From contig NZ_RJJD01000001.1 of assembly GCF_003721515.1 (NCBI RefSeq), positions 248,001 to 312,000 of the forward strand: 64,000 nt of DNA. The letters are read 5' to 3'. Source of the stretch: Rufibacter latericius (GTDB lineage Bacteria > Bacteroidota > Bacteroidia > Cytophagales > Hymenobacteraceae). The notes below the pieces were generated by a model. That model searched no databases, was not told where the DNA came from, and saw nothing but the letters and a program-made list of their open reading frames with translations. Positions 1,327-58,354 of the stretch are shown here, piece by piece; position 1 is the first letter of the stretch, and each line of letters begins with the position of its first letter. A program made the translations under genes and the position numbers.

Positions 1327-1370
1327 ATCCGTTTCGGGGTTGTTTTCTGTAAAACGGCCTTGAAACGGAT
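1327..1370 (+). terminator. ilvE terminator, a member of the intergenic palindrome family
   Basis: ATCCGTTTC at the left pairs with GAAACGGAT at the right, enclosing the family core GTTTTCTGTAAAAC, and a run of eight T follows at 1370-1377. It is the only family copy with an obvious T-tract directly downstream, so here it should work as an intrinsic terminator. Confidence 0.8.
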
Positions 1371-1390
1371 TTTTTTTGATGTTTGTGCAT

Positions 1391-1712
1391 GCAGTTGGCT
1401 TGTTCTGGCGAAAGTCCGTTCTTTTCGTGAGTGCATGAATTTTAATGTTTCATAGCTAGGCTCCGAGCGTTCACAGCTGCGAGACCCCGCCTTCCGCCCT
1501 CGCGCTGTGCCAGCTTCCTTTGCTCCTTGCAGTCGCAATGCCTATCGGCACCGGAACCTGCCTAGGCGCTCACCCGAAAGTTTAGAAACAGAGGGGTGCA
1601 GGAGAAAGGCAATCCTTTTCTGTTCCTTATAATATGATAATATGGTTCAAGTCTGCGACCTGGACCTAAATGACCTGCGGTTAGCAAAGCTGTGAGGCAA
1701 GAGTCTCAAATA
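1391..1712. repeat. Dispersed intergenic repeat R1, copy A
   Basis: About 320 bp that align with 32741-33052. The best-conserved block (1460-1558) contains GGCTCCGAGCG, CCCCGCCTTCC, CCCTCGCGCTG, TTCCTTTGCTCC and CAGTCGCAATGC in the same order and spacing as copy B. A second conserved block at 1641-1712 starts with ATGGTTCAAGTCTGCGACC. No transposase or terminal inverted repeats are visible. The antisense strand has an open frame of about 40 codons shared with copy B without indels, but amino acid changes are frequent, so I do not call a gene. Confidence 0.75.
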
Positions 1713-1862
1713 TGCGTCCCTGTAATTTTACGATGCCTAATTATGCCCTTAGCCTTATCACCAATAACATAAACGGCACCTACTTTCTACAATAAAACAT
1801 CGTTCATAGGCTACTCGGCTACCACTTTACCAACCTTTTCAGCCTTCTTTCCTTATAACTAG

Positions 1863-1870
1863 TATCTTTG
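1863..1870 (+). promoter_or_regulatory. Putative -7 promoter element of prfB
   Basis: TATCTTTG matches the Bacteroidota -7 consensus TAnnTTTG exactly and lies 44 bp before the prfB ATG. No clear -33 TTTG is seen. Confidence 0.6.
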
Positions 1871-1913
1871 CAAAAACGGCTAATTCCCCAAATTAAGATT
1901 AGCACATCCTGAT

Positions 1914-2991
1914 ATGACCCAAGAACAAATCAAAGAATTGAAAGGCCGGGTAGAGGCGTTGAGGAGGTATCTTTGACTACGATGCCAAGAAAGAACAAGT
2001 AACTGCCATTGAGGCCCAATCTGCTGCCCCTGATTTCTGGGACGATCCTAAAAAAGCCGAAACCGTTTTAAAAGAGGCCAAAAGCCTCAAAACCTGGACC
2101 GATGATTTTGAGAACACGTCCAAGGCGGTGGAAGACGTAGAAGTACTATTTGATTTCTATAAAGAGGGCGACGTCTCAGAGGAAGATATATCCACTGAGT
2201 TTAAGGCCGCTGAGGAAACTGTGGAGGGACTGGAATTCAAGCGGATGCTCAGCAACGAAGAAGATCAGTTAGGCGCTGTTTTGGAGGTAAACTCCGGGGC
2301 CGGTGGTACCGAAAGCCAGGACTGGGCCGAGATGCTCTACCGCATGTACCTCATGTGGGGCGAACGCAAAGGCTACACTGTCAAACAAATCGACTTTCAA
2401 CCGGGCGAGGGCGCGGGCATCAAATCGGCGACCCTCCAGTTTGAGGGAGACTTCGCCTATGGTTACCTGAAGGCAGAGATTGGCGTGCACCGTTTGGTGC
2501 GCATCTCACCTTTTGACTCCGGCGGACGCCGACATACCTCTTTTGCCTCGGTGTTTGCCTACCCCATTGTGGATGACACCATTGAGATCACCGTAAATCC
2601 CGGCGATATTGAGTGGGACACTTACCGCGCCGGTGGAGCTGGTGGCCAGAACGTAAACAAAGTAGAAACGGCGGTACGGCTCCGGCACAAACCAACGGGC
2701 ATCACTATTGCAGTGCAGATTGAGCGCTCGCAGCTCATGAACAAGGAACACGCCATTAGAATGCTGAAATCGCAGCTCTACCAGATTGAGATCAACAAGC
2801 GGAACGAGGAGCGCGACAAGGTGGAGAGCACCAAAAAACGCATCGATTTCGGTTCTCAGATCCGGAACTATGTGCTGCACCCGTACAAGCTTATCAAAGA
2901 CATCAGAACCGGCGTTGAGCGCACTGATGTCCAAAACGTGCTAGACGGAGACTTGGATGACTATATAAAAGCGTTCCTGATGCAGGCCTAA
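1914..2991 (+). CDS. prfB: Peptide chain release factor 2, made by programmed +1 frameshift
   Basis: Decodes UGA and UAA stop codons and releases the peptide from the ribosome. Translation starts at ATG 1914 and reaches an in-frame TGA at 1974-1976 after 20 codons. A +1 shift at CTT (1971-1973), so that GAC at 1975 is read next, continues the frame to 2991, giving join(1914..1973,1975..2991), 358 aa, a normal RF2 length. Visible motifs are the SPF anticodon tripeptide at 198-200, giving UGA specificity, and the catalytic GGQ at 243-245 within the [13 protein letters not shown] segment. The slippage context AGGAGG-TAT-CTT-TGA-C is nearly the same as in E. coli. Annotation software that ignores the shift would call only a shortened gene from 2128. 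Confidence 0.95.
1962..1977 (+). promoter_or_regulatory. prfB autoregulatory +1 frameshift site
   Basis: Elements in order: internal Shine-Dalgarno-like AGGAGG (1962-1967), TAT, the slippery CTT (1971-1973), then TGA followed by C. Known mechanism: when RF2 is scarce, the slow UGA is bypassed by tRNA-Leu slipping into the +1 frame, which restores RF2 synthesis. Confidence 0.93.
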
Positions 2992-3004
2992 AAGCCTCTT
3001 CTGA

Positions 3005-3067
3005 CTTCCTTAAAACTGAAAAGCCTTTCCGCAGCAATTGCAGAAAGGCTTTTCAGTTTTAAGGAAG
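3005..3067. terminator. Bidirectional terminator between prfB and the minus-strand gene at 3118
   Basis: A near-perfect 25-bp stem (CTTCCTTAAAACTGAAAAG at left with its complement at right, including GCCTTTC/GAAAGGC) encloses a 13-nt loop. A- and T-rich stem sides would give a U-tract in either direction. Its right arm doubles as the left arm of the palindrome at 3054-3092. Confidence 0.8.
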
Positions 3068-3092
3068 TTTTCGGGAAACTGGTTCAAAAACC
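3054..3092. repeat. Intergenic palindrome family, copy overlapping the prfB terminator
   Basis: Left arm CAGTTTTAAGGAA, core GTTTTCGGGAAAC, right arm TGGTTCAAAAACC. It follows the family layout but the arm is shared with the hairpin at 3005-3067. Confidence 0.55.
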
Positions 3093-3117
3093 CAATACTC
3101 CGGTAAAAGAACGAACC

Positions 3118-3507: not shown

Positions 3508-3625
3508 CTCTATGGATTTTTAAAGTCTCAGGGAAACAACCTTAATGTAAGTTTAGCATAGTAAACTGGTTGCATCCCGCTGAAGGTAGTTTCCTTCTAA
3601 TATACGATTTTGGGGCTAAAAATGC

Positions 3626-5706: not shown

Positions 5707-5747
5707 AAAAAAGGTGGCCACTCTGCAACAGAGTGGCCACCTTTTTT
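5707..5747. terminator. Bidirectional intrinsic terminator
   Basis: A 19-bp perfect stem (AAAAAAGGTGGCCACTCTG and its complement) with a 3-nt loop. The A and T flanks supply a U-tract in both directions, serving the plus gene ending at 5687 and the minus gene ending at 5785. Confidence 0.92.
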
Positions 5748-5748
5748 A

Positions 5749-5779
5749 TGACCGTTTTAAGGAAAACAGCCCCAAAGCG
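5749..5779. repeat. Intergenic palindrome family copy
   Basis: Core GTTTTAAGGAAAAC with right arm AGCCCCAAAGCG. The left arm is degenerate and runs into the adjacent terminator. Confidence 0.6.
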
Positions 5780-6647: not shown

Positions 6648-6688
6648 CGGTTTCTGCTTTGTTTTCAGGAAAACGGCCGCTAAACGGG
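6648..6688. repeat. Intergenic palindrome family copy
   Basis: Left arm CGGTTTCTGCTTT, core GTTTTCAGGAAAAC, right arm GGCCGCTAAACGGG. It abuts the stop codon of the SDR gene at 6689 on the minus strand. Confidence 0.8.
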
Positions 6689-9172: not shown

Positions 9173-9414
9173 AAATATGGAGTGATTGAGAGAAGGAGTG
9201 CCTGCATGAATCAAAGCTGCTCCTTCTTTGAACTGAATTATCTTTCTTTAAAGCGGTGAAACACCGTTTGTTTCATTTAAACTGCTGTTGACGGGCTTTC
9301 ACTTGCCTTAACGTCCTATGCAAAAAGTTGTTGGTTAGAACCCAACCAGCAGCCTAAGGTTTACGGCATCTTTGCCTAAAATAGCCTTAAAACGGCTAAC
9401 ACCTTCTCAAACCG

Positions 9415-10461
9415 TCAGTCCAGTTTCTTTTTCAGGAACCGGTTCAGGTCTGTGTTGAGGGTAAGGTAATTGCTGGCCCCGGCTACGTGGTACTTGGCGT
9501 AGGTGTACTCAAACCGAAACGCGTGCACTTTCACCGAGGCTCCAAAGGAAAATCCGGCCATGCCGCCTACGTTCTCCACCACCAATTCTTTCCGCCGGAG
9601 GTGGTTGTAGCCGCCCCGCACCTGAAAACCCGGCCCCAGGATAAACTCTCCACCCACCACAAAGTGCCGCGCCAGCTTATCCCCGAAGGTCTTTTCCTCT
9701 TTTACTTCCTGGTTGTTCTCGTCTATGGTACCAGGCTTGTCAGGGTCAAGGTACACGATGTCAAAGCGTTGCAATTGGTGCGCCGTCAGCGATAGCCGGA
9801 ACGGGGCGTGTTCTGGTTTATAACTCGCCCCCAACTGGATGTCCAGCGGCACGTCCTCGCGTTCGCCGTTGGCATAGGTATTTACCATCACGCCAAGGTT
9901 TTTGATGGCTAAACCCACCACAAAATCCCGCTCAGGGTGCTTGAAAGTTCCACCCAGGTCTACTAACACCCCCAACGCCTGGTCACCGGCAATGCTGGAA
10001 ACCGCTACTTTGGCCGTAGCACCCAGGGTAAAAACCTCAATGGTAGCCGCATGCGACAGCGACAACGCATAATCCCGGACCTTGAAACTTCCTTCCTCTA
10101 CCCCGGCATCATTGGTCTGGGTAAACGAACCATAATCCAAGTACTGAATCCCGATGGCGTTGCGGCCCCAGCGGCTGCTCTCAAACGTGTAGTTCAGGTT
10201 GTTTTGGCTCACATCGGCCAGGTAGTTGAGGTAGGTAAGCCCAAGGTGGTTATTTGTTTTGCCGTGCATGAGCGCCGGGTTCGCCGCCACCGCGTTCACA
10301 TCCTCCAAACCCGAGGAAACGTTCACCCCTCCCAACCCTGCTACGCGGGCATGCGTGGGCACGTCCAGGAACCGAAAAACAGAACGCCCTCCCACTTGGG
10401 CGGAAGCCAGCTGCCCAATGGCTACCAGCAAAAGACCCAATAGGAAAAGGCGTTTCTGCAT
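9415..10461 (-). CDS. porQ: Type IX secretion system protein PorQ
   Basis: Encodes 348 aa with a signal peptide (LFLLGLLLVAIGQLASAQ) followed by GGRSVFRFLDVPTHARVAGLGG, characteristic of PorQ, then a series of amphipathic beta-strands predicting an outer-membrane barrel of the PorV/FadL-like group. In type IX secretion PorQ is an outer-membrane component linked to the PorU/PorV/PorZ attachment complex (known from P. gingivalis). It ends with a charged KKKLD tail. It starts 24 bp after lon ends on the same strand, so the two are likely co-transcribed. A weak palindrome-family core lies in that gap. Confidence 0.87.
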   Translation of the reverse strand: MQKRLFLLGLLLVAIGQLASAQVGGRSVFRFLDVPTHARVAGLGGVNVSSGLEDVNAVAANPALMHGKTNNHLGLTYLNYLADVSQNNLNYTFESSRWGRNAIGIQYLDYGSFTQTNDAGVEEGSFKVRDYALSLSHAATIEVFTLGATAKVAVSSIAGDQALGVLVDLGGTFKHPERDFVVGLAIKNLGVMVNTYANGEREDVPLDIQLGASYKPEHAPFRLSLTAHQLQRFDIVYLDPDKPGTIDENNQEVKEEKTFGDKLARHFVVGGEFILGPGFQVRGGYNHLRRKELVVENVGGMAGFSFGASVKVHAFRFEYTYAKYHVAGASNYLTLNTDLNRFLKKKLD

Positions 10462-10485
10462 CGTTTTTCAATAAACAGGCTTAAA

Positions 10486-12984
10486 TCAGCTTTCGGCTTT
10501 GGCCGGAACGGCTTCCTCACGTACCCGCAGGTCCAGTGGTTTCTTCACTTTCTCCGGCAACAGGGCAAATTCCAACACCTCGTCTACGTAATCTACATAG
10601 TGGATATTGAGCCCCTCAATATAGTGCGCCGAGATCTCGTTCACATCTTTCCGGTTCTTGTAGCACAAGATCACATCTTTGATACCCGCGCGCTTGGCCG
10701 CCAAGATTTTCTCCTTGATGCCACCCACCGGCAACACCTTGCCACGAAGCGTGATCTCACCAGTCATGGCCAAATGCGACCGTACCTTGCGCTGAGTAAA
10801 CACCGAGGCGATAGAAGTAAAGATAGCGATTCCGGCACTTGGTCCATCTTTTGGTACGGCCCCTTCGGGGAAGTGGATGTGCAGGTCGTATTGGTCGAAG
10901 AGACGGTAGTCGATGCCTAGTTCCTCAGCGTGGGCCCGCAGGTAAGAAACCGCCGTGATGGCTGATTCCTTCATCACATCGCCCAACTGGCCCGACAAGG
11001 TCAGTTTGCCTTTGCCACGGCTCAGCAACGACTCAATAAACAGGATATCACCGCCCACCGAGGTCCAGGCCAGACCTGTTACCACCCCTGCGGTTTCGTT
11101 GTCCTGGTACAGTTCCTTGTCGAAAATCTCCGGACCCAGGATACGCACCACGTCTTTTGGCTCCAACTTGGCTGGCCACTCCTCCTCCATCGCCTTAGAT
11201 TTAGCAATGTTCCGAATCACCGCGCCCAACTTGCGCTCCAGGTTCCGCACACCCGACTCGCGGGAATAGTCTTCAATCACTTTCTGGATAGCGGCCGTAG
11301 AAAACGCCACATCCTTGGGTTGCAAGCCATGATCTTCCTTCTGCTTCGGGATCAAATGACGTTTCGCGATTTCGGTTTTCTCCTCCACCGTGTAGCCCGT
11401 CACTTCAATGATCTCCATCCGGTCACGCAGAGCTGGGTGAATGGTCTCCAGGGAGTTGGCCGTGGCGATGAACAGGACTTTAGACAAGTCATATTCCACC
11501 TCCAGGTAATTGTCCACGAAGGTGTGGTTCTGCTCCGGGTCCAGTACCTCTAGCAAAGCCGAAGATGGATCTCCGCGGAAATCAGAGGTCAATTTATCTA
11601 CCTCATCCAGGATCATCACCGGGTTAGACGAAGACACTTTCTTGATCTGGCTGATGATACGGCCCGGCATAGCGCCCACGTAAGTTTTACGGTGCCCTCT
11701 TATCTCGGCTTCATCACGTACGCCTCCTAGGGCAATGCGCACGTATTTCCGACCCAATGCTTTGGCTACCGAACGGCCCAGGGAAGTTTTACCCACGCCC
11801 GGAGGTCCGTACAAGCACAGGATAGGCGCCTTCATGTCGTTTTTCAACTTGAGCACGGCCAGGTACTCTAGAATCCGCTCTTTTACCTTTTCCAGACCGT
11901 AATGATCGGCATCCAGGATCTTTTTGGTGCGCTTTAGGTTGAAGTTATCTTTGGTATAGTCGTTCCAAGGCAAATCAAGGAGGAATTCACAGTAATTCAA
12001 AGAAATGGGGTACTCGGCGGCCTGCGGATTCAGGCGGCTAAGTTTATCGAGCTCCTTGCTGAAGTGCTTGGCGACGGTCTCGGGCCATTTCTTTTTAGCG
12101 GCCGTAGCGCGCATCTTCTCCACTTCCTGCTCTGGGCCGTCCATGCCCAGTTCATCCTGAAGCACTTTGATTTGCTGGCGCAGGAAATAGTCACGCTGCT
12201 GCTCGTCAATATCTGTGTGCACCTTGGAGTGGATTTCCTGCTTGATTTCCAGCATCTGGATTTCGCGCATCATCAACTGCAGCAAGGTGGTGCCCCGCTC
12301 TACGCCATCGTTGATCTCCAGCAGCTTTTGCTTCTGAGCTACTTCGGCGTTGATGTTAGAAGACAGAAAATGGGTCAGAAACGAAGGGCTATCGATGTTG
12401 TCCAACGCCACCTGAGCCTCCTGGGGAATCTCAGGGTTCAGTTTTAGGATTTTAGCGGCCGCCTCCTGCAATGACTCCACCAAGGCCTTTACCTCTTTGC
12501 TTTTCTGTTTAGGAAAAGTCTCAGGGCAATAAGAGACTTTGGCCACCATGAACGGCTCTTCCTGGGTTACTTCCTCAATCTGGAAGCGGCTCTGGCCCTG
12601 GATGATGATGGTGGTATTGCCGTCTGGCAGCACCAACATTTTCAGAATCTTGGCCATGGTGCCCACCTGGAATAAATCGTCTGGCGAGGGATCTTCGGCT
12701 GACATGTTCTTTTGAGCCACTACGCCCACCGTTTTATCGCCGCGGTAGGCTTTACGCACCAGCCGCACCGACTTTTTCCGGCTCACGGTTATGGGAAGCA
12801 CCACTCCCGGAAACAAAACGGTGTTTCTGACTGGCAATAGAGCAAGTGTATCTGGGTTATTTTTTTCAGCGCCCTCCGCGTCGTCCAGTTCCGAGGTGAT
12901 GATGGAGATGATGTCTCCATTGCCATCGTCAGATAAATCGGACAACATGAGCTGCTGTAGTAGGTTCTCTTGGGTATTGTTCAT
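10486..12984 (-). CDS. lon: ATP-dependent protease Lon
   Basis: Encodes 832 aa from ATG 12984 ([12 protein letters not shown]). It has the three-part Lon layout: an N-terminal substrate-binding domain ([18 protein letters not shown] near 50), an AAA+ module with Walker [10 protein letters not shown] near 392-400 and Walker [10 protein letters not shown], and a C-terminal serine-lysine protease domain with [10 protein letters not shown], the nucleophile near Ser716, and [12 protein letters not shown] supplying the lysine. It degrades misfolded and regulatory proteins in the cytoplasm. It is divergent from the OmpA-family gene at 13180 and lies directly upstream of porQ. Confidence 0.98.
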
Positions 12985-16731: not shown

Positions 16732-16772
16732 GGCTTTCGGCCTATTTCTGTAAAAGGATACCGAAAACAGCC
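16732..16772. repeat. Intergenic palindrome family copy with altered arms
   Basis: GGCTTTCGGCCT at left and AGGATACCGAAAACAGCC at right enclose ATTTCTGTAAAA. Arm sequence differs from the consensus, but pairing is partly kept. Confidence 0.6.
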
Positions 16773-20104: not shown

Positions 20105-21373
20105 TTAGAGGTTTCTTTTCTTATTCTGTCTTAAAAACGCAAGGGCCCTCTCCAGCACTACATCAGTTCTAGGTTCTGGCTTTTCTTTGCTGAAGTCAAT
20201 CAGGATGTTCGGAGTATAGGTTTCCCGGGGCGAGCCGTTGAGGTGAAACAGCTTCTCCACCGGAAAAGAAAAGCTGATACGGGTGTTGGGCATTTGATAA
20301 GAGTAAATGGCACCGTTCAACCCGGCCATCTTAGTCCCGATGGTGGTGGCCCGTTTCATGCCATCAAACGCGATGACTATGCCCTCTCCCACGCTGCCCG
20401 TCCAGTGCCCGGCCAAGACAGCCATGGGTTTCCTATAGATTTTTCCTTTTGGTGATACCATCTCCACCCAACTGCGCTTCACCCCGTATTGCCGTTCCTC
20501 AGCGGTAAGTTCATGCTTCTGGTAGAACTGCTCCTTGGTGATGAACCTCCCCAGAATGGCCCGGGCTACGGTGGTGTTTCCGCCGCTGGGCGTCTCCCGC
20601 AAATCCAGGATGAGGGCACTGGTCTGTTCCAAAGATGCCAAAACGCTGTCAAAAGCTTGAATCAGGCTGTTATCACCCAGGTAATTATTGATTTTGATGT
20701 ACCCAATCCCGTTCAGGTTTCGGCCTTCCACTTTGGCAGGGTACTTAATGTCCTCCAGCCACATGGTAGGAACATCGGGCTGAAACGTACGCAGTTGCCC
20801 CTTTTCCCGCACCGTAATTTTACGAGGCTGCACATGGTTTCCCGCCAGAAGCATGCGTAAAGCATAGTTCCTAGCCTCGAGATCCACGTTTTGCAGGGAT
20901 TTTCCTAAAAACGGCTTTAAAGCGTCTGCCACTGCCACTTCGTTCACTGAGACAATTTCCATTCCCGCCCGAAAGCCTGCAGTCTCAGCCCCCGAACCTC
21001 TCCTCACTTCCAACACCACCGGTTTCCCTTGCACGAACTCCGCCCAGATGTCGGTACCGGAAGGAACCAACCGGGGCGACAGACGGGTGTTGGTGTTCAA
21101 AGAAGCATGGTGGTCATACAGTTCGTTGAAGGCCCGCTCCAGCAAAGACACAAACTGCCCACGGGCAGAAATAGTGTCCAACTGACGGAGGTAAATCTCC
21201 CGAACTTTCTCCCAATCGGTCTGCTTCTTATCAAAGTAACAATAGTCTTCCTGGATGGTTTTCCAGAAGTAAGTAAAATCTGCTTCGTACTGTTCTTTGG
21301 TGAGCGCAGGATCTTGAGCGAAGACCAGCGTCGTGGAAAAAAACCATAACCAAACAAAAAGGGCCTTTTTCAT
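20105..21373 (-). CDS. S41 family (C-terminal processing type) peptidase, secreted
   Basis: Encodes 422 aa from ATG 21373 (MKKALFVWLWFFSTTLVFAQ), which places the signal peptide at the N-terminus; the frame extends to 21391 but that would overlap the upstream gene. An N-terminal helical domain, a PDZ-like segment (AGFRAGMEIVSVNEVAV near 145-160) and the tail-specific protease fold with ALILDLRETPSGGNTT and GSVGEGIVIAFDGMKRA (candidate nucleophile Ser) are visible. It likely processes periplasmic proteins. It begins 14 bp after the GH3-like gene ends. A full palindrome-family match is embedded in its coding sequence at 20887-20924. Confidence 0.87.
   Translation of the reverse strand: MKKALFVWLWFFSTTLVFAQDPALTKEQYEADFTYFWKTIQEDYCYFDKKQTDWEKVREIYLRQLDTISARGQFVSLLERAFNELYDHHASLNTNTRLSPRLVPSGTDIWAEFVQGKPVVLEVRRGSGAETAGFRAGMEIVSVNEVAVADALKPFLGKSLQNVDLEARNYALRMLLAGNHVQPRKITVREKGQLRTFQPDVPTMWLEDIKYPAKVEGRNLNGIGYIKINNYLGDNSLIQAFDSVLASLEQTSALILDLRETPSGGNTTVARAILGRFITKEQFYQKHELTAEERQYGVKRSWVEMVSPKGKIYRKPMAVLAGHWTGSVGEGIVIAFDGMKRATTIGTKMAGLNGAIYSYQMPNTRISFSFPVEKLFHLNGSPRETYTPNILIDFSKEKPEPRTDVVLERALAFLRQNKKRNL
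20887..20924. repeat. Palindrome-family match inside the S41 coding sequence
   Basis: CGTTTT-GCAGGGA, core TTTTCCTAAAAA and CGGCTTTAAAGCG follow the family layout with both arms. It encodes about LKPFLGKSLQNV in the protease on the minus strand. It could be chance or an inserted element. Confidence 0.45.
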
Positions 21374-21387
21374 GCCGGACACGAAGA

Positions 21388-22887
21388 TCACGGTTGTACT
21401 ACTTCCAAGAGGCCGTCTGCCAGGGTGCGGTCATTGCTCAGGCGGGGCACTTTGTTCTGGCCGCCCAGCTTGCCTTGCCGCTTCATGTACTGCTGGAAGG
21501 CATCTGCCGGCAAAGCGGTCACTTTCAGGTTGGCCAGGATGTTGCCCGAGATCAGGTCATCATAATAGCTGTTGCGGCGGCGCAGGTGCCAATTCAGGGC
21601 TTTGGCGAAGCGCTCCGGGTCATGCGGCGGGGTGTCATAGGCGATAAACCACTCGTGGTACGAGGCGCCCTCGCCCTGACTCACGTAAGGAGCCACGGTG
21701 AACTCGGTCACGGCCACCTCGGGGAACTCCTTCATGGCATCGTGCAAGGCTCCTTCCACTTCCTCGCCTATCACGTGCTCGCCAAACGCGGAGATAAAAT
21801 GCTTGAGTCTGCCGCTTACCACCAGTTTATGCGGAAACAGCGAAGTAAATTTCACCGTGTCCCCGATGGAGTAACCCCAAAGTCCGGCGTTGCTGTTGAT
21901 GATGAGCGCGTAATTTACCCCGGTCTTCACCTCGGCTAAGCTAAGTCTACGCGGGTTGGGCTGGTGGTATTCCTCTGCGGGGATGAACTCGTAGTAAATG
22001 CCACTGTCGGCGAGTAAAAGTAGGCTTGGGTCATCCTGGGCGTTTTGGAAGGCGATGAAGCCCTCGGAGGCCGGGAAGGTCTCAATGGAATCAATCTTCC
22101 GGCCGATGCTCTCGTACAGTTTGGCCTTGTAGGGAGCAAAATTCACGCCTCCGTAGACAAACAGGTTGAAGTCAGGAAAAACGTCTTTGATCTGCTTGCC
22201 GGTACGCGACATGATTTTGTCAAAGTACATCTGCACCCACGGCGGAATACCCGAGATGAGTGTCATGCGCTCCTGCAAAGTCTCGTTCACGATGGCGTCC
22301 AGCTTGGTTTCCCAGTCCTCAATGCAATTGGTCTCGTAACTGGGCAGTTGGTTTGTGCGCAAATACCCCGGCACATGGTGGTTCACAATACCCGATAACC
22401 GACCGGTGTTAATGCCAGCCACTTGCTCCAGCACCGGACTGCCACTCAGGAAAATCAGCTTCCCGTCCAGGAACTGGGCGCGGCCAGTTTCGTGAATATA
22501 ATTGAGCAGTGCATTCTTGGCCCCGTTGATGTGGTTTGGGATGGAATCTTGGGTGATGGGGATGTACTTGGTGCCGGAAGTAGTGCCCGATGTTTTGGCA
22601 AAATATAGCGGAAGGCCGGGCCAGAGCACATCTTTCTCGCCTCGCTTCAGGCAATCAAAATACGGGCGCAGGGCCTCGTAGTCGCGGATGGGTACGGCTT
22701 GGGCAAAATCCTTGGGGGTTTGGATGTCCTTGAAGAAGTGGTCTTTCCCGAAAGCGGTGTTCGCGGCTTTCCGGATGATCGTCTGAAATACCTGTTCCTG
22801 GGCTTGGGCGGGCCTTTCCATCCAGCTTTGCTGCTGTGAATGCACCCATGCCGCCAACGGTTTACTCAAGAACGCTTTTATACCCAT
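21388..22887 (-). CDS. GH3-like acyl-adenylate synthetase family protein
   Basis: Encodes 499 aa and aligns by motif with the GH3 auxin-responsive promoter family (ANL-like adenylating enzymes). The phosphate-binding motif TSGTTSGTKYIP is at 99-110; YGGVNFAPY, ASEGFIAFQ and NSNAGLWGYSIGDTVKF correspond to the later adenylation motifs. In plants GH3 enzymes couple acyl acids to amino acids through an acyl-AMP; the substrate of bacterial members is not established. There is no signal peptide. The secreted S41 peptidase gene follows 14 bp downstream, so the two may be co-transcribed. Confidence 0.88.
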   Translation of the reverse strand: MGIKAFLSKPLAAWVHSQQQSWMERPAQAQEQVFQTIIRKAANTAFGKDHFFKDIQTPKDFAQAVPIRDYEALRPYFDCLKRGEKDVLWPGLPLYFAKTSGTTSGTKYIPITQDSIPNHINGAKNALLNYIHETGRAQFLDGKLIFLSGSPVLEQVAGINTGRLSGIVNHHVPGYLRTNQLPSYETNCIEDWETKLDAIVNETLQERMTLISGIPPWVQMYFDKIMSRTGKQIKDVFPDFNLFVYGGVNFAPYKAKLYESIGRKIDSIETFPASEGFIAFQNAQDDPSLLLLADSGIYYEFIPAEEYHQPNPRRLSLAEVKTGVNYALIINSNAGLWGYSIGDTVKFTSLFPHKLVVSGRLKHFISAFGEHVIGEEVEGALHDAMKEFPEVAVTEFTVAPYVSQGEGASYHEWFIAYDTPPHDPERFAKALNWHLRRRNSYYDDLISGNILANLKVTALPADAFQQYMKRQGKLGGQNKVPRLSNDRTLADGLLEVVQP

Positions 22888-23206
22888 GTAGATGCTTTGT
22901 TAGTGAGAACCAATGCCAAAAAAAAAGCCGGAAAACAAAGCAAAGCTCCGTAATTCCCACAACTGAAATCGGGTAAATATAGCAATCTTACTCAAGTTCT
23001 TTTCCACCACCTTTCCACTTGCCTTTTGAAGGCGTTTTCTGAAAAGCTGGCTTAAAACAGAAACTTACGACCGGTACATTCCTGGATTTTCGTTTCGGCC
23101 CACACTTAGCCATAAGGGTCAGTTTCCTGGTTGACACCCCTCTTTTATAACCCAAAGCCGAATTTTTTAGTATTTTAAGGTTAAACATTTCCAAACTCAC
23201 AAAGCT
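22888..23206. other. Intergenic region between divergent genes
   Basis: This 319-bp spacer between the GH3-like gene and osmC holds a palindrome-family copy at 23021-23060 and AT-rich sequence before osmC. I see no gene in it. Confidence 0.6.
23021..23060. repeat. Intergenic palindrome family copy
   Basis: GCCTTTTGAAGGC at left, core GTTTTCTGAAAA, then GCTGGCTTAAAACAG at right. Confidence 0.75.
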
Positions 23207-25844: not shown

Positions 25845-25890
25845 CTGCCGTTTCAGTACTGCTTTCTGTAAAACAGCCCTAAAACGGCAG
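25845..25890. repeat. Intergenic palindrome family copy
   Basis: CTGCCGTTTC at left pairs with AAAACGGCAG at right; inner arms AGTACT/AGCCCT and core GCTTTCTGTAAAAC. It lies just downstream of the minus-strand rrf2 gene and could end its transcript. Confidence 0.8.
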
Positions 25891-30558: not shown

Positions 30559-30591
30559 TCTTTTTTTTAAAATAACCTTATACTTCCCCCC

Positions 30592-30641
30592 GCGGCATCC
30601 CCGCGGCAACTCTTTCAAAAGAGTGGCCGCGGGGATGCCGC
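30592..30641 (+). terminator. Strong GC-rich hairpin
   Basis: GCGGCATCCCCGCGGC pairs with GCCGCGGGGATGCCGC, with an inner ACTCTTT/AAAGAGT stem; TTTT follows. It probably ends the transcript of the small gene at 30307. Confidence 0.75.
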
Positions 30642-30678
30642 TTTTAGGCCGGTTTCCTAAAAAACACCCCCAAAACCC
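30640..30678. repeat. Intergenic palindrome family copy
   Basis: GCTTTTAGGCC at left, core GGTTTCCTAAAAAAC, right ACCCCCAAAACCC. It directly abuts the preceding hairpin. Confidence 0.75.
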
Positions 30679-30788
30679 AAATCACACCCCAGCCCTTGTC
30701 TTTTCTCTTTTAAGTTGCCCATGCTCCGCTTGGGTGCACGGTTTCCTGTTTTACCGTATCTTGCAGGACTCAACTTAAAGGCCCTTCC

Positions 30789-33248: not shown

Positions 33249-33288
33249 CTGTTTCTGCTTTGTTTTCCTAAAAACAGCCTTTAAACCG
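33249..33288. repeat. Intergenic palindrome family copy
   Basis: CTGTTTCTGCTTT at left, core GTTTTCCTAAAAAC, right AGCCTTTAAACCG. Confidence 0.8.
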
Positions 33289-35242: not shown

Positions 35243-35284
35243 CCTGTTTCGGGGCTATTTTCTAAAAAATAGCCCCGAAACAGG
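35243..35284. repeat. Intergenic palindrome family copy, near-perfect hairpin
   Basis: CCTGTTTCGGGGCTATTTT pairs along its whole length with AAAATAGCCCCGAAACAGG, loop of about four. It is the most perfect copy in the window, lying 40 bp after mutA. Confidence 0.9.
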
Positions 35285-36072: not shown

Positions 36073-38205
36073 ATGAAACCAGATTTCACCAAGATACCAT
36101 TTACGTTTTCGGGCTCAGAATTAGGAAAGGAGCCCGAAACGAAGCCAAGTACCTGGAAGACCGCTGAGCGATTACCGCTTCAGAACTTCTATACCAAGGA
36201 AGACACGGCGGCCTTTGAGCACCTGGATTTTGCCGCTGGCTTGCCGCCGTATTTGCGCGGGCCCTACAGCACCATGTACGTCAAGAACCCTTGGACCATC
36301 AGGCAGTACGCCGGTTTCAGCACCGCCGAGGAATCCAACGCCTTTTACCGCCGCAACCTGGCTGGCGGGCAGAAAGGGCTATCGGTGGCGTTTGATTTGG
36401 CTACGCACCGGGGCTATGACTCAGACCACCCGCGGGTAGTGGGTGATGTAGGAAAAGCAGGTGTGGCTATTGACTCTATCCTGGACATGAAGGTTCTGTT
36501 CGATCAGATTCCGCTGGACCAGATGAGCGTGTCCATGACCATGAACGGAGCCGTGTTGCCTATTCTGGCGTTCTACATTGTGGCGGCAGAAGAGCAGGGC
36601 GTCAAGCCGGAGCAGTTGAGCGGCACCATCCAGAATGACATTCTGAAGGAGTTCATGGTGCGCAACACGTACATCTATCCGCCGGAGCCCAGCATGAAGA
36701 TCATCGCGGATATCTTCGCCTACACCTCCCGGCACATGCCCAAGTTTAACTCCATTTCCATCTCGGGCTACCACATGCAGGAAGCCGGCGCCACGGCCGA
36801 TTTGGAGTTGGCCTACACCTTAGCCGATGGTTTGGAATACGTGCGCACCGGTTTGGCCGCAGGCATGGATATTGACACCTTCGCGCCGCGGTTGTCGTTC
36901 TTTTGGGCCATCGGCATGAACCATTTCATGGAAATTGCCAAAATGCGCGCCGCCCGTATGCTGTGGGCCAAACTGATCAAACAGTTCAACCCCAAAAGCG
37001 ATAAATCCTTGGCCTTGCGCACGCACTGTCAAACCAGCGGCTGGAGTTTGACCGAGCAGGACCCGTTCAACAACGTGGCCCGCACCACTGTGGAAGCCCT
37101 GGCCGCTGCCTTAGGTGGAACGCAAAGTTTGCATACCAACGCCCTGGATGAAGCCATTGCCTTGCCCACAGATTTCTCGGCGCGCATTGCCCGCAACACC
37201 CAGATTTACCTGCAGCAGGAAACGCACATCACCAAGACCGTGGATCCGTGGGGTGGCTCATATTATGTGGAGGCCCTCACCCACCAACTCGCGCACCGCG
37301 CCTGGGACCTGATTCAGGAAGTAGAACGCCTGGGCGGTATGGCCAAAGCTATTGAAACCGGTTTGCCCAAGATGCGCATTGAGGAAGCCGCCGCTAGAAA
37401 GCAGGCGCGCATTGATGCCGGCAAAGACGTGATTGTGGGCGTGAACAAGTACAAACCCGAGCAAGAGGAGCACCTGGAGATTCTGGACATTGACAACACC
37501 GCTGTTCGTGAATCACAGTTCGCCCGTTTAGCCAAACTTCGCGAAAATCGGGATGAAAACGCTGTGTTTGCTGCCATGGACGCGCTCACCAATGCTGCTG
37601 AGACAGGCGAAGGCAACTTGTTGGAGCTGGCCATCAACGCCGCCCGCGTGCGCTGCAGCCTGGGCGAGATTTCGTATGCCTTAGAAAAAGTATTCGGCCG
37701 CCACCGGGCCACCATCAGATCCATATCCGGCGTGTACAGTTCAGAAATATCAGACGACGAGAATTTCGGCAAAGCCCAGGCGCTCGCCGATCAGTTTGCG
37801 GAACAGGAAGGCCGCCGACCCAGAATCATGGTGGCGAAAATGGGTCAGGACGGCCACGACCGTGGTTCCAAAGTAATTGCCACTTCCTTCGCGGATTTAG
37901 GCTTTGACGTGGATTTAGGTCCGCTGTTCCAGACGCCAGAGGAAGTGGCCCTGCAAGCCGCCGAGAACGACGTGCACGTGGTAGGCGTTAGCAGTCTAGC
38001 CGCCGGTCATAAAACCCTTATCCCGGCTTTGATCTCAGAATTGAAAAAATTAGGCCGCGAGGATATTCTGGTGATTGCCGGCGGCGTGATTCCGGCGCAA
38101 GATTACCAGTTCCTATATGATGCAGGGGTATCCGGGGTTTTCGGGCCGGGCACCGTGATCAGCGTGGCGGCGCAGGAGATTCTGGAGAAGTTGCTGAAGG
38201 GGTAA
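36073..38205 (+). CDS. mutB: Methylmalonyl-CoA mutase large (catalytic) subunit
   Basis: Encodes 710 aa from ATG 36073 (an upstream TTG at 36052 is unlikely). The substrate-binding TIM barrel (about 50-410) contains [33 protein letters not shown] and [17 protein letters not shown]. The C-terminal B12-binding domain carries the base-off/His-on motif DGHDRG at 593-598, giving the cobalt ligand H595, followed by [12 protein letters not shown] and VIAGGVIP. It catalyses the radical rearrangement of methylmalonyl-CoA. It works with MutA, MeaB (44329) and the adenosyltransferase (window start). Confidence 0.97.
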
Positions 38206-38281: not shown

Positions 38282-38417
38282 TTTTTTGTTAAATTCCATA
38301 AATCAAACTCATTCCCCACGCATAAATGACTTTCAAACCTTAGGAACCACTTTGTCCTTAAAAGCGGATTCCCGGGTAGTTTTCCTAAAATAAGCTATAA
38401 ACAAATTCTATACTCTA

Positions 38418-41952: not shown

Positions 41953-41992
41953 CGGTTTGGGGCTCCTTTTCCTGAAACTGGCTCAGAAACGG
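41953..41992. repeat. Intergenic palindrome family copy
   Basis: CGGTTTGGGGCTC at left, core CTTTTCCTGAAAC, right TGGCTCAGAAACGG. Confidence 0.75.
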
Positions 41993-44288: not shown

Positions 44289-44327
44289 GTATTTTTCGCG
44301 TACTTTCCTGAAATCAGCCTTAAAACG
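44289..44327. repeat. Intergenic palindrome family copy
   Basis: GTATTTTTCGCG at left (degenerate), core ACTTTCCTGAAAT, right CAGCCTTAAAACG. It ends two bases before the meaB GTG start codon. Confidence 0.6.
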
Positions 44328-45317: not shown

Positions 45318-45354
45318 CGTTTCAGGCCTCTTTTCTAAAAAAAACCCTGAAAAG
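45318..45354. repeat. Intergenic palindrome family copy
   Basis: CGTTTCAGGCCT at left, core CTTTTCTAAAAAAA, right ACCCTGAAAAG. It lies between convergent meaB and xerD. Confidence 0.7.
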
Positions 45355-45396: not shown

Positions 45397-46296
45397 TTAA
45401 CTTCTGGGGTGAAATTCCTGAATGATTTGCTTCAGGTAATCACGGTCCAGATGGGTGTAGATTTCGGTGGTGGTGATGGATTCGTGGCCCAGCATTTCCT
45501 GAACAGCGCGCAGATCAGCGCCGCCTTCAATCAGGTGGGTGGCGAAGGAGTGGCGGAAGGTGTGCGGACTGATGCTTTTCTGCAGACCTACTTTAGCTGC
45601 CAGGTCTTTGATGATGTTGAACACCATCACGCGGCTTAGACTAGCGCCTCGGCGGTTGAGGAACACAAAATCCTCCTGGCCTTTTTTGATGGTCTGGTGC
45701 CGGCGCACGCCATCAAGATACAACCTGATATATTTCAAGGCATCTTTCCCGATGGGCACCAACCGTTCTTTATTGCCTTTTCCGGTGATGCGCAGGAAAC
45801 CCAGGTCTTCGTAGAGGTTGCTGATTTTTAGTTCGATGAGCTCGGTGACGCGCAGGCCAGAGCTGTAAAGCGTTTCCAGCATGGCCTTGTTGCGGGTTCC
45901 CTCTGGGGTGCTCACGTTTATGGCGTCAAAGAGAGCGACAATCTCCTCGTAACTGAGCACATCGGGCAGTTTGCGTTGGAGCTTGGGGGCTTCAATGGTC
46001 TCGGTGGGGTCTGCGTTGAGCAGGTCTTCCATGATCAGGAATTTGTAAAAGGCCCTGATGCCGGAGATAGTGCGGGCCTGCGAATGGGAAGTCATGCCCA
46101 GGGTATTGATCCATTCCAGAAATCCGCGCAGGTGGTGGGCTTCTACGGCTAGCGGACCGATGTTCTCATTGGTGACTTCAAAATACTGCACCAGCTTACG
46201 GACATCTCGCAGATAAGCCTCTACAGAGTGACTTGACAGAGATTTCTCCAGTTGGAGATACCCCTGGAATTGGGTAAGACTTACTGACCAGTTCAT
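45397..46296 (-). CDS. xerD: Tyrosine recombinase XerD
   Basis: Encodes 299 aa with the XerC/D layout: an N-terminal SAM-like core-binding domain (1-90) and the catalytic domain with R149 (SSGLRVTE), K173 (TGKGNKE), H245 and R248 (SPHTFRHSF), H271 (LGHES) and nucleophile Y280 (EIYTHL). It resolves chromosome dimers at dif with FtsK. The C-terminal VQEMLGHESITTTEIYTHL is more XerD- than integrase-like; there is no prophage or integron context here. No dif site was recognised nearby. Confidence 0.92.
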   Translation of the reverse strand: MNWSVSLTQFQGYLQLEKSLSSHSVEAYLRDVRKLVQYFEVTNENIGPLAVEAHHLRGFLEWINTLGMTSHSQARTISGIRAFYKFLIMEDLLNADPTETIEAPKLQRKLPDVLSYEEIVALFDAINVSTPEGTRNKAMLETLYSSGLRVTELIELKISNLYEDLGFLRITGKGNKERLVPIGKDALKYIRLYLDGVRRHQTIKKGQEDFVFLNRRGASLSRVMVFNIIKDLAAKVGLQKSISPHTFRHSFATHLIEGGADLRAVQEMLGHESITTTEIYTHLDRDYLKQIIQEFHPRS

Positions 46297-49726: not shown

Positions 49727-49767
49727 CCCGATTATGACCCGTTTTAGGAAAACAGGCCATAATCGGG
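49727..49767. repeat. Intergenic palindrome family copy with substituted arms
   Basis: CCCGATTATGACCC at left pairs with GGCCATAATCGGG at right, around the family core GTTTTAGGAAAAC. Arms differ from the consensus but remain complementary, and TTTT follows. Confidence 0.85.
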
Positions 49768-54756: not shown

Positions 54757-55428
54757 TTGGCAGCCCAACATCGGACCATCTCGGTACCCCGTACGGCGCA
54801 CCTTCACCAGGTAGGCACCCTTTCTGCAGAAACCAAACACCTCTGGATTGTGCTGCATGGCTATGGCCAATTGGCCCGATATTTCATCCGGCACTTTGAG
54901 GCAATGGCAGACGGGCAGACGGTTATTATTGCGCCCGAAGGTTTGTCGCGCTTTTACCTGGAGGGAGTATCGGGCCGCGTGGGGGCCACCTGGATGACGA
55001 AAGAAGAACGCCTGCACGAGATCACCGACTACGTCACCTATCTGAACCTGGTGCGCGATATGGCCTTGCAGGAAGCTCCCGGAGCTACGTTGCACGTGTT
55101 GGGCTTCTCACAGGGAGGAGCCACGGTTTGCCGTTGGCTGGCGCAGGCGCAATGGCCCGTGGCACAGCTGGTGCTCTGGGCCGGCATGTTCCCCGAGGAC
55201 ATGGAGCTGACTTCTGCCGATTCCGCGTTATCACGAACCCACCTAACGTATGTGTATGGCCTACAAGATCCCTTCGTAGCCGATGATAAAGTACAGGCCC
55301 AACTCACGCGGGTACAAGCCGCCGGGCTGCACCCCCAGGTTTTGACCTTTGAAGGCAAGCACGAACTGAACCAGGAAATCTTGCAGCAACTGAAACATAA
55401 TCCTGTTACTTCCCCGCGTACCTTTTAG
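54757..55428 (+). CDS. Alpha/beta hydrolase, carboxylesterase/phospholipase type
   Basis: Encodes 223 aa starting at TTG 54757, one base after the cdd stop codon, which points to translational coupling. The oxyanion-hole strand WIVLHGYGQL, nucleophile S118 in GFSQGGAT, D in YGLQDPFV and H in GKHELNQE complete the catalytic triad of the LysoPLA/carboxylesterase group. It hydrolyses small esters or lysophospholipids in the cytoplasm; substrate not established. The palindrome 55421-55459 overlaps its stop codon. Confidence 0.88.
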   Translation: MAAQHRTISVPRTAHLHQVGTLSAETKHLWIVLHGYGQLARYFIRHFEAMADGQTVIIAPEGLSRFYLEGVSGRVGATWMTKEERLHEITDYVTYLNLVRDMALQEAPGATLHVLGFSQGGATVCRWLAQAQWPVAQLVLWAGMFPEDMELTSADSALSRTHLTYVYGLQDPFVADDKVQAQLTRVQAAGLHPQVLTFEGKHELNQEILQQLKHNPVTSPRTF

Positions 55429-55459
55429 GCCTGTTTTCTCCAAAACAGGATTAAATCAG
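55421..55459. repeat. Intergenic palindrome family copy overlapping the esterase stop codon
   Basis: CCTTTTAGGCCT at left (its TAG is the stop codon), core GTTTTCTCCAAAAC, right AGGATTAAATCAG. Confidence 0.75.
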
Positions 55460-55999: not shown

Positions 56000-56019
56000 G
56001 TCTTTTATGAAAGGGTAAG

Positions 56020-56772: not shown

Positions 56773-56779
56773 AATAGAC

Positions 56780-57529
56780 TTATTCGAAGTTGAGGTAAAG
56801 CGTCACGGTATTGGTGTTCAGCTGCTGAATGCTGTTGTTGAACACCGTAGGGAAAGGCTGATGCACGTTGGAGATTCCGCGGGAATACCGGATTTCCGGA
56901 GCGAACTTGAAGAACGGATAGAACATATCCAGCCCCACGCCATACTCTATCGCGAAGTCCATGCTTTTCACTTGCAGCACCTCGGGGTTACCTTTCTTCT
57001 GGCCGCCCACCACTAACGAGGGCTTAATACCCGCAATGAAATACATTTGGGTGTTTTTGCGCCGCTTGGCTTCATATTTCACCAGCAGCGGAAGCTCTCC
57101 GGCAAAGGTATTCATCTGTTGCGTAATGTCTCCGCCAGGGGTGATATCATCGGCGGGCACGTTCTTGTATTCAATCAGGCGGCTATGGTAGCCAACTCCG
57201 GGTTGGGCCCTAAGCACAAAGTTCGGCGACAGCCGGTACGTAGTGATAAAGTTCACATTAAAGCCGATGCCCGTCTTATCGTTCACGGAGTACCCTTCGT
57301 CAATTCGGTCTACATAGTATTGCGAATGCTCCAGCTGGTACCAGGACCCGTTCACGCCCAGAGAGAACCCCCAGCGCAGCCGTTTGAACTCATAGCCGGG
57401 TAGGTTTTCACCGTGGAGCTTGCCCTGCGCCAGGGTTTGCTGCCCAGCGCCCAACAAGGCCAGAAATAAGAAAACAGTTATTTTGTGCCGGTGTAAATGG
57501 AGCTGATGCCGAAGGTAAGTGAATGCCAT
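56780..57529 (-). CDS. porT: Type IX secretion outer-membrane protein PorT
   Basis: Encodes 249 aa. The N-terminus has a basic stretch followed by a hydrophobic signal (VFLFLALLGAGQQTLAQ). The remainder is an eight-strand-like outer-membrane barrel (YEFKRLRWGFSLGVNGS, NFVLRAQPGVGYHSR, FAPEIRYSRGISN) ending in LNFE. PorT is essential for type IX secretion in P. gingivalis, and its position beside ubiE is a known Bacteroidota arrangement, which supports the call. Its start codon overlaps the end of ubiE by 52 bp, suggesting coupled translation. Confidence 0.85.
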   Translation of the reverse strand: MAFTYLRHQLHLHRHKITVFLFLALLGAGQQTLAQGKLHGENLPGYEFKRLRWGFSLGVNGSWYQLEHSQYYVDRIDEGYSVNDKTGIGFNVNFITTYRLSPNFVLRAQPGVGYHSRLIEYKNVPADDITPGGDITQQMNTFAGELPLLVKYEAKRRKNTQMYFIAGIKPSLVVGGQKKGNPEVLQVKSMDFAIEYGVGLDMFYPFFKFAPEIRYSRGISNVHQPFPTVFNNSIQQLNTNTVTLYLNFE

Positions 57530-58200
57530 TTTGTGTTTTTAAAGCCGATTCTCTGGAAAATACTCAGGAAGTTGTTGCCATCCGGGAACGCCTGCACAGA
57601 CTCGGGCAGATACGTGTAGGCGGCATTGTCTTTTGAGATCATTTTCCCGAAAACGGGTAAAATATGTTTGAAGTAAAAATTATATCCTTGTTTCATGGGG
57701 AACGCCTGCGGCTTGGAGAACTCTAGGATCACCGCCATGCCGCCCGGTTTCAGCACCCGCAGCATCTCTGAAAGGCCTTTCTCCAGGTTCTCGAAGTTGC
57801 GCACCCCAAAGGCCACCGTAATGGCGTCAAAGTGATTATCGGGGAATTGGATGTTCTCTGAGTCGCCAAGGTGCAGCTGTACCAAGTGGCTCAGTCCGCG
57901 CTTGTTTATCTTCTCACGGCCCACCTGCAGCATTCCCTCTGAGATGTCTATCCCGATGATCTGCTTGGGCTGCAGCCGAAGCGTTTCCAGGGCGAAGTCA
58001 CCGGTACCTGTGGCAATATCCAACACCATCTGAGGCTTCACCGGCTCCAACAGTTTTACCGCTCTTTTGCGCCAGTAGATGTCTACCCCTGCGCTAAGGA
58101 AATGGTTAAGAAAATCGTAGCGTTTGGCAATGCTGTTGAACATCTGCGCCACCTGCTTTTTCTTACCTTCTTCCTGGTCTTTGTACGGAACTACTGACAT
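57478..58200 (-). CDS. ubiE: Demethylmenaquinone methyltransferase
   Basis: Encodes 240 aa. SAM motif I is LDIATGTGDFALE; the family motifs YDFLNHFLSAG (near 29-39), GDSENIQFPDNHFDAIT (in part) and FGVRNFENLEKGLSEM are complete, then GGMAVILEFSKP. It adds the ring methyl group to make menaquinone, the respiratory quinone of this phylum, so the MenG role is meant. First gene of the ubiE-porT-SDR operon, with a -7 element at 58224. Confidence 0.96.
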   Translation of the reverse strand: MSVVPYKDQEEGKKKQVAQMFNSIAKRYDFLNHFLSAGVDIYWRKRAVKLLEPVKPQMVLDIATGTGDFALETLRLQPKQIIGIDISEGMLQVGREKINKRGLSHLVQLHLGDSENIQFPDNHFDAITVAFGVRNFENLEKGLSEMLRVLKPGGMAVILEFSKPQAFPMKQGYNFYFKHILPVFGKMISKDNAAYTYLPESVQAFPDGNNFLSIFQRIGFKNTKWHSLTFGISSIYTGTK

Positions 58201-58223
58201 GTACTACGTTTAGTTAAGGAGGG

Positions 58224-58231
58224 CAAAGCTA
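58224..58231 (-). promoter_or_regulatory. Putative -7 element of the ubiE-porT operon
   Basis: Reads TAGCTTTG on the minus strand, an exact TAnnTTTG match, 24 bp before the ubiE ATG. Confidence 0.6.
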
Positions 58232-58286
58232 CTATGCTTTAACTAGAATTCCCGCATTATGTTGTACACAAGCCTCCCATAAATAG

Positions 58287-58316
58287 CAGAGCCCCGGCCA
58301 AAAGACCGGGGCTCTG
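58287..58316. terminator. Terminator-like hairpin after the PorE-like gene
   Basis: CAGAGCCCCGG and CCGGGGCTCTG form a perfect 11-bp stem with loop of eight (CCAAAAGA). TTTC follows on the plus strand; on the minus strand the flank is moderately A-rich. Confidence 0.75.
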
Positions 58317-58354
58317 TTTCTTCCCTGTTTTCCTGAAAGGAACGCTAAAACGGG
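58315..58354. repeat. Intergenic palindrome family copy
   Basis: TGTTTCTTCCCT at left, core GTTTTCCTGAAAG, right GAACGCTAAAACGGG. It begins inside the preceding hairpin. Confidence 0.7.

Follow-up and report, generated by a model that had tools for sequence, protein, structure and literature searches.

A genus-restricted palindromic DNA site in Rufibacter and its possible role as a mark of self DNA

A stretch of 64,000 nucleotides from Rufibacter latericius (assembly GCF_003721515.1, contig NZ_RJJD01000001.1, positions 248,001 to 312,000), referred to in its entirety as the window, carries copies of one long palindrome in many of the gaps between its genes and also in some of the genes themselves. 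This arrangement raises the question of what the palindrome is and of what could keep so many copies alike. The best-supported core of the answer is that it is almost certainly a genus-wide DNA recognition site under constraint at the level of the DNA. On what reads the site we are more tentative, and the interpretation that we rank first, a mark of self DNA recognized by a dimeric protein, is put forward as a possibility rather than a probability.

The palindrome and its distribution

The motif approximates GTTTT-N6-GTTTTC-N3-AAAAC-N6-AAAAC, a dyad-symmetric element of 36 bp with phased A/T tracts. A first-pass annotation of the window had listed 25 main and five weak places, and a 36-bp match lies within 16 bp of each of the 30, with scores of 25.2 to 41.6 bits except at 49729 (19.9 bits) and 29769 (20.7 bits). 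The layout that it described, four tracts spaced 11 bp apart in either arm, likewise holds. Scored with a profile built from 691 kb of its source genome (5.67 Mb, labelled G000, with congeners and relatives labelled G001 onward) and with copies counted from 14 bits upward, the window contains 44 copies, 34 of which are intergenic and 10 of which lie within genes as called, independently of any annotation, by a simple codon-usage finder of our own. Copies that had escaped the earlier list include those at 9358 (30.6 bits) and 20888 (31.6 bits, in a called gene). The statement that most spacers longer than 80 bp hold exactly one copy survives by a narrow count (23 of 43 spacers of at least 80 bp), while 17 such spacers hold none and three hold two or more.

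A profile trained on the window alone reaches at least 8 bits at 111 start positions, whereas 20 first-order Markov shuffles average 10.6 such positions. In the 691 kb of G000 there are 416 copies of at least 14 bits, compared with 4 in the reversed control and 9 in one third-order Markov sequence, and extrapolation gives a total of about 3400 copies for the genome. These numbers are far above chance, and conservation extends beyond stem pairing, in the tracts; the first-pass annotation had named chance-level counts and conservation confined to the stem as the two outcomes that would tell against its proposal.

The element is restricted to Rufibacter. A rigid pattern allowing up to three mismatches, counted in the forward direction, occurs 911 times in G000 and 52 to 1909 times in 15 congeners, compared with 0 to 4 times in 43 genomes of other genera; 394 other Bacteroidota genomes yield at most six rigid-pattern matches, which is within the range of the reversed-pattern control. 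Exact matches to the strict consensus in the named genome collection amount to 16 loci, all of them from Rufibacter, and viral contigs contain no match to the strict consensus (exact pattern only). Profile searches return at least 150 matches in each of 16 Rufibacter genomes and 0 to 9 in 23 others. Over-representation within one lineage, by which uptake sequences are recognized, is therefore a property of the Rufibacter motif. None of the papers listed by literature searches, which covered few subscription journals, describes the element.

When the profile was retrained on samples from sister genera, it drifted in G023 (60 kb) to 15 weak matches (18.8 bits, against 4 matches in the control) and gave 0 to 2 matches in four other samples of 20 to 60 kb. 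The G023 matches are taken as AT-rich background, although a trace of a related motif is possible. Separately, G022, also of a sister genus, has five profile matches, the best of which (E 3.7e-8) is the lowest value among the 23 non-Rufibacter genomes and may represent transferred Rufibacter DNA.

Placement, constraint on the DNA and inheritance in place

Across 10 sampled species, copy density lies between 3.6 and 6.6 per 10 kb, and the copies favor particular places. In the five species with clearer motifs, spacers of 80 to 500 bp contain a copy in 39 of 43 cases when the flanking genes converge, in 113 of 207 when they are in tandem and in 14 of 55 when they diverge. Among 650 copies near a stop codon (10 species), 180 start 2 to 12 bp after it; there is also a second bump of copies 52 to 58 bp 3′ of stop codons, perhaps with a hairpin between the stop and the motif. 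Regular spacing is a weak independent signal. When the null preserves both the type and the length of spacers, the coefficient of variation of spacing is 0.837 versus 0.900 expected for the five clearer species (P 0.05), 0.946 versus 0.998 for G000 (P 0.14) and 0.689 versus 0.902 for four others (0 of 300 randomizations). The median distance to the next copy is somewhat larger for the coding copies of G000 than for random coding positions, at 845 versus 632 bp (n = 76).

Copies are scarce in DNA of low GC content, which is only a proxy for acquired DNA. Windows of 4 kb lying at least 8 GC points below the species mean (n = 19) have 1.3 copies per 10 kb and are empty in 68% of cases, compared with 5.4 copies per 10 kb and 4% empty for windows that exceed the mean by up to 4 points (n = 253, the commonest class); windows more than 4 points above it (n = 30) also have fewer, at 4.1 per 10 kb. 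Five low-GC stretches without copies (L101, L050, L058, L130 and L068; GC 0.36–0.43) were identified, and the proteins of all but the last were scanned, revealing polysaccharide-synthesis, SusC/SusD and phage-type integrase families or no Pfam match.

Copies within genes allow constraint on the DNA to be separated from constraint on the protein. In G000, 108 of the 416 copies fall in called genes, at 0.20 per kb versus 1.90 per kb between genes, and in the five clearer species 14 of 319 do so. In a gene for a 1410-residue protein, one copy occupies identical codons in all 15 species examined and a second is present in 7 of them, and a gene for a 1329-residue protein has copies at fixed codon positions in 16, 15 and 11 of 16 species. 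The copies found in 7 and in 11 species are graded from one species to another, the latter scoring anywhere from less than 12 bits up to 39. Outgroups were compared for the latter protein: its orthologs in seven other genomes show no comparable match, apart from one weak match (13.8 bits) four columns from a site. Because these orthologs align without a gap at the site shared by 15 of 16 species, that site looks to have been built by substitution.

Synonymous positions at five sites in these two genes (16 codon positions) behave accordingly to whether they fit the motif. Where the third letter of a two-fold codon matches a tract (12 codon positions), 9 of 125 comparisons are changed versus 54.4 expected from identical codons elsewhere in the same genes; where it breaks a tract (4 codon positions), 19 of 34 are changed versus an expected 9.3, and 9 of these 19 changes produce the motif letter. 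Among the breaking codons only TTC moves toward the motif (9 of 14 to TTT), while AAC does not (10 of 14 to AAT). The sites were picked by their score in G000, which favors matching letters in that genome, the other species being unselected, and the comparisons are non-independent through common ancestry; G008 is left out for both genes and the split G001 gene for the first. The constraint on third letters is selection, or drive, on the DNA itself. The window gene at 20105–21391, with a close homolog in only 4 of 16 genomes (G000 included), was of no use for such a comparison.

Among near relatives, most copies are inherited in place. The spacer at 29658–30788 could be located in 15 Rufibacter genomes (G000 included, G001 being the exception), and in each of them it has a copy that starts 115 to 239 bp ahead of the following gene. 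The near pairs G003/G014 and G006/G013 have 41 and 35 copies in common and 7 and 14 unshared, respectively. For wider pairs the shared and unshared counts are 18 and 22 (G000/G003), 20 and 19 (G000/G014), 12 and 21 (G005/G013), 14 and 12 (G012/G013) and 5 and 15 (G012/G005). None of the 21 unshared events inspected, all from G003/G014 and G006/G013, is a clean insertion of 36 to 46 bp.

Substitutions spare the tracts. In 30 ungapped copies shared by G003 and G014, the tract cores (positions 3, 4, 14–16, 22, 23, 33 and 34) differ at 0 to 10%, whereas the arm interior and center mostly differ at 13 to 43% and the flanks at 27%; such rates exclude shared copies bearing indels (11 of 41 for G003/G014 and 4 of 35 for G006/G013). 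Between species the motif takes the form of dialects. The half-site is tTtCCGTTTTcGGgCTCATTTcc in G012, with about 60 bits of information, and tcCGTTTTTgGcCTgTTTTCt in G013, with G006 nearly identical (51–53 bits), while G000, G003, G014 and G008 have 24 to 31 bits and little information outside the tracts; values are inflated for the species with 9 to 12 copies (G002, G004, G009, G010, G011 and G015). A two-protein tree places G000, G003, G014 and G008 with four other species in one clade (support 100), several inner branches being weak. In 13 ungapped copies shared by G012 and G013, the same five positions (12, 13, 24, 25 and 31) differ in 85 to 92% of cases, and thus the dialect has shifted while the copies stayed where they were. 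A further hallmark of uptake sequences, dialects that differ by base changes at fixed locations, is therefore present in Rufibacter, with a sharing of places that falls with distance. An odd variant with a CTCTG core and AAATGGA, preceded by TTGC, occurs at four places in G012 (L094, L105), which hints that some copies have a recent common ancestry.

Candidate readers and functions

The symmetry of the element points to a protein. At most positions of 367 strong G000 copies, matches between paired arm columns are no more frequent than they are after the columns have been shuffled; the exceptions are pairs 4/33, 5/32 and 6/31 (z 3.7, 6.4 and 3.2), together with the center pair 18/19, for which z is 3.2 in one analysis and negative in another. 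The result is the same in five other species, several of which also have a positive 6/31. Since the arms hardly covary, the symmetry is for the most part a property of the consensus, as in a site for a symmetric protein. Covariation does occur at several flank pairs. It is due to a minority of copies that possess extended, locus-specific stems, and this minority has been drawn into hairpins or terminators. The first-pass annotation had favored a conserved, protein-site-like element over plain terminators, and the conservation of the tracts beyond stem pairing bears this out.

If the palindrome is a mark of self DNA, it would be a recognition site in double-stranded DNA, its four GTTTT/AAAAC boxes forming a pair of inverted arms in which the boxes lie one helical turn apart, and would probably be read by a dimeric, sequence-specific protein. 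The sites would mark the cell's own chromosome about every 1.5 to 2 kb, as uptake sequences mark the DNA of Neisseria and Haemophilus. They would be built and maintained mainly by base changes in place, would gather where they are least harmful (just after stop codons, between convergent genes and, where tolerated, in a few genes) and would be scarce in newly arrived DNA, and their dialects would follow shifts in the specificity of the reader. We infer the protein reader, its dimeric form and, as the maintaining force, a preference for self DNA exerted through uptake together with recombination.

The pattern of evolution resembles that of uptake sequences most, and a nucleoid-protein interpretation is also tenable; the first-pass annotation had named both among its possible roles. 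Like the DNA uptake sequences (DUS) of Neisseriaceae and the uptake signal sequences (USS) of Pasteurellaceae, the palindrome is present in thousands of copies, about one per 1 to 2 kb, and is lineage-restricted with dialects; it occupies mostly permissive intergenic places, with some copies in genes and some in terminators, and is scarce in low-GC, probably acquired DNA. It differs in being a palindrome of 36 to 46 bp with four A/T boxes, in occurring in Bacteroidota and in the lack of a PF00437 match over the cut-off. Published work describes USS as evolving by point mutation and lying about 1 kb apart (PMC7811141), DUS as absent from recently acquired genes and favoring permissive, mostly intergenic places (PMC2397512), and DUS dialects, terminator association and, in Simonsiella, overlapping dyad pairs (PMC3630211). 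Within the same phylum, Riemerella is naturally transformable and requires ComEC, DprA, ComF, RecA and four proteins without homologs in known machinery (PMC8459023). ComEC is present in all 16 Rufibacter genomes.

Several observations weigh against a mark of self DNA. ComEC is equally common in relatives that lack the motif (12 of 13). Uptake-sequence systems employ type IV pilus machinery with a sequence-specific minor pilin. PF00437, the pilus or secretion ATPase family, is above cut-off in none of the 16 Rufibacter genomes, with weak sub-cut-off matches in eight (pilins were not searched), and the known kind of uptake receptor is thus probably missing. At 36 to 46 bp and up to about 60 bits (G012), the palindrome is far larger than the DUS and USS of 9 to 12 bp, and we know of no report of competence in Rufibacter, no search by name having been made. 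Sharing in place drops with distance, to 18 of 40 copies for G000/G003 and 5 of 20 for G012/G005, and the 3′-end bias seems stronger than free space alone would give. Any site that is acquired slowly would also be scarce in low-GC DNA, and a low GC content is not evident in the two longest stretches without copies, whose values are near their genome means (L107 of G008, 20 kb, 0.468; positions 1–15578 of L036 in G000, 15.6 kb, 0.488). Finally, new DUS in Neisseria were judged to arise by recombination and not by point mutation (PMC2397512).

A further, somewhat doubtful proposition is that Rufibacter has genome-wide self-recognition of its own kind, in which a new class of protein, acting without type IV pili, would recognize a long, dialect-bearing palindrome, independently of DUS and USS and for the first time in Bacteroidota. 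To our knowledge, only two bacterial families carry thousands of self-DNA marks. If the proposition is true, this environmental genus would provide a third independent system of marks with dialects, and with it a test of how marks arise, of whether drive or selection maintains them and of the ways in which DNA might be sorted in a phylum that lacks the classical pilus.

In the main rival, which we consider somewhat unlikely, the sites serve to organize the chromosome. They would recruit an abundant dimeric nucleoid protein, or else a topoisomerase, to places beside gene ends, there to absorb supercoils and fold the chromosome, and the dialects would reflect co-evolution of the bound protein. 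In E. coli, gyrase is recruited to repetitive extragenic palindromes (REPs) and the bacterial interspersed mosaic elements (BIMEs) that contain them. Phased A/T tracts and dyad symmetry are consistent with such a role, as are the presence of copies in 39 of 43 convergent versus 14 of 55 divergent spacers, the 180 of 650 copies that start 2 to 12 bp after a stop codon and the DNA-level constraint within genes. However, the 50 to 60 bits in G012, G013 and G006 are much above what a few thousand sites need, a change of dialect at thousands of sites would in our judgement be unusual for a global binder, and no candidate protein turned up, no whole-proteome search having been made. Were the reader a chromosome-folding protein, the sites would be among the densest long sequence-specific sets known to us, and their dialects could be used to follow the co-evolution of a global DNA binder and its thousands of sites.

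An improbable alternative is a 3′-end element acting on transcription or RNA, either as a bidirectional terminator formed by a protein roadblock or as a hairpin protecting mRNA ends. Copies do lie just 3′ of stop codons, positions near 5–6/31–32 and some flank pairs covary, and at least four consecutive outward pairs, indicating longer locus-specific stems, are found in 29 of 353 G000 copies and 25 of 84 G012 copies. The motif overlaps a predicted terminator hairpin in about one-third of convergent spacers (5 of 16 in G012, 4 of 12 in G013; for G000 the scan covered 12 of 33 stretches). But conserved copies also lie midway in long genes, and one upstream of a start codon in a divergent spacer; most of the arm shows no covariation, and predicted terminators also occur apart from the motif, before or after it, from a noisy finder by which shuffled spacers often score. 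The motif shares with intrinsic, bidirectional terminators its palindromic form, its presence in convergent spacers and a minority of terminator-like stems, and differs from them in its conserved tract sequence and its mid-gene copies. A T-run lies near the edge of 3 of the 44 window copies by our own rule, where a single copy with a clear T-run had been reported. As a general role, an RNA hairpin or intrinsic terminator is rejected on the scant covariation of the arms, the mid-gene copies and the few T-runs, and the bidirectional 3′-end hairpin suggested by the first-pass annotation fails in the same capacity, given in-gene copies at conserved codons and copies in divergent spacers.

We regard as quite improbable a signal for recombination or repair resembling Chi, or a tag by which a defence nuclease would recognize self DNA, either of them being read from double-stranded DNA. 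The low-GC scarcity and the in-gene constraint fit such a mark as well as they fit uptake, and the lack of strict-consensus matches in viral contigs agrees with it, as far as an exact pattern can tell; known Chi sites, however, are short and directional.

Least probable is a mobile palindrome, resembling REPs or miniature inverted-repeat transposable elements, that was spread by a REP-associated tyrosine transposase (RAYT) or another transposase and is now decaying. High copy number and extragenic position are what such an element would show, RAYT-like matches occur in 15 of 16 Rufibacter genomes, one of them (L100 12311–12508, in G013) flanked by near-perfect copies at 12136 and 12885, the odd G012 variant is repeated at four places, and a sizeable share of copies is unshared between more distant species. 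Against this, G006 has no Y1_Tnp match and yet homogeneous copies, and RAYT-like matches are found in 18 of 21 family genomes shown to lack the motif (28 of 33 other family genomes overall, 12 of the 33 being without a motif test). The nearest copies at 24 classified RAYT loci are, by eye, no more perfect than others (loci were obtained for 30 of 45 matches, and 6 of these 30 gave no open reading frame). Conservation in near relatives is confined to the tracts, and at one in-gene site orthologs from outside the genus align without a change in length. Compared with REP/BIME-RAYT systems, the motif is likewise a short palindrome, extragenic, downstream of genes and in many copies, whereas its presence is independent of RAYT genes, its copies are orthologous in near relatives and its arms hardly covary. 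REPs are defined as palindromes with GTAG or CGTC at one end, and some lie within genes (PMC3733652). Neither tag is present in the Rufibacter consensus (GTTTT...AAAAC with T/C-rich flanks) and there is no association with RAYT, so that the REP-like assignment raised by the first-pass annotation is rejected on two of three features.

As for the RAYT-like genes themselves, one to six Y1_Tnp matches lie at differing places in 15 of 16 Rufibacter genomes (L141–L170), and in several species one of them lies downstream of methylmalonyl-CoA mutase. The densest of the 30 RAYT loci scanned (L159, on G001:C100) has seven copies of the palindrome in 3.2 kb around the RAYT-like gene.

Copies and neighboring genes in the window

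Individual copies in the window, to which no strand is assigned, are given below with their scores.

1331..1366: copy, 38.1 bits; just 3′ of an aminotransferase gene (235–1305) and followed by a T-run
3056..3091: copy, 30.7 bits; after an RF-1/PCRF peptide-release-factor gene (2128–2991)
5743..5778: copy, 34.8 bits; convergent spacer
6650..6685: copy, 32.5 bits
7557..7592: copy, 35.1 bits; adjoined by a separate hairpin (by eye)
9358..9393: copy, 30.6 bits; not in the earlier list
10452..10487: copy, 26.8 bits
15203..15238: copy, 28.5 bits
15630..15665: copy, 37.1 bits; strongly palindromic, T-run at its edge
16733..16768: copy, 27.2 bits
19992..20027: copy, 27.4 bits
20888..20923: copy, 31.6 bits; within the gene called at 20105–21391
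23023..23058: copy, 31.3 bits
24212..24247: copy, 32.3 bits; followed by a separate hairpin (by eye)
25850..25885: copy, 36.2 bits
29769..29804: weak copy, 20.7 bits
30641..30676: copy, 32.2 bits; divergent spacer, with orthologous copies in congeners
33251..33286: copy, 35.5 bits; divergent spacer, in which congeners also carry copies
35246..35281: copy, 38.2 bits; strongly palindromic
36106..36141: weak copy, 15.1 bits; within a methylmalonyl-CoA mutase gene, with 31.7–47.6 bits at the same place in six other species
38367..38402: copy, 25.2 bits
39149..39184: copy, 34.8 bits
41955..41990: copy, 27.7 bits
42168..42203: copy, 24.3 bits; second in the called spacer that also holds 41955..41990
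44291..44326: copy, 35.5 bits; directly 5′ of a start codon at 44329, present in G014 and G003 too
45319..45354: copy, 33.2 bits; 6 bp 3′ of a stop codon
46955..46990: copy, 35.0 bits
48734..48769: copy, 33.8 bits; 4 bp 3′ of a stop codon
49729..49764: weak copy, 19.9 bits
51280..51315: copy, 30.3 bits
52772..52807: copy, 29.1 bits; short convergent spacer
55422..55457: copy, 32.1 bits; overlaps a stop codon
55928..55963: copy, 41.6 bits; the top score in the window
57630..57665: copy, 24.1 bits; within a called gene
58316..58351: copy, 31.7 bits; 8 bp after the stop of an OmpA-family gene (58360–60105)
61306..61341: copy, 26.6 bits; not in the earlier list

Two neighboring genes may be mentioned in passing. 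Positions 30789–31742, which lie close to two methylmalonyl-CoA mutase genes, encode a member of the dimethylarginine dimethylhydrolase family (Pfam DDAH_eukar), and positions 45397–46296 encode a site-specific recombinase of the XerD type (TIGR02225 above cut-off).

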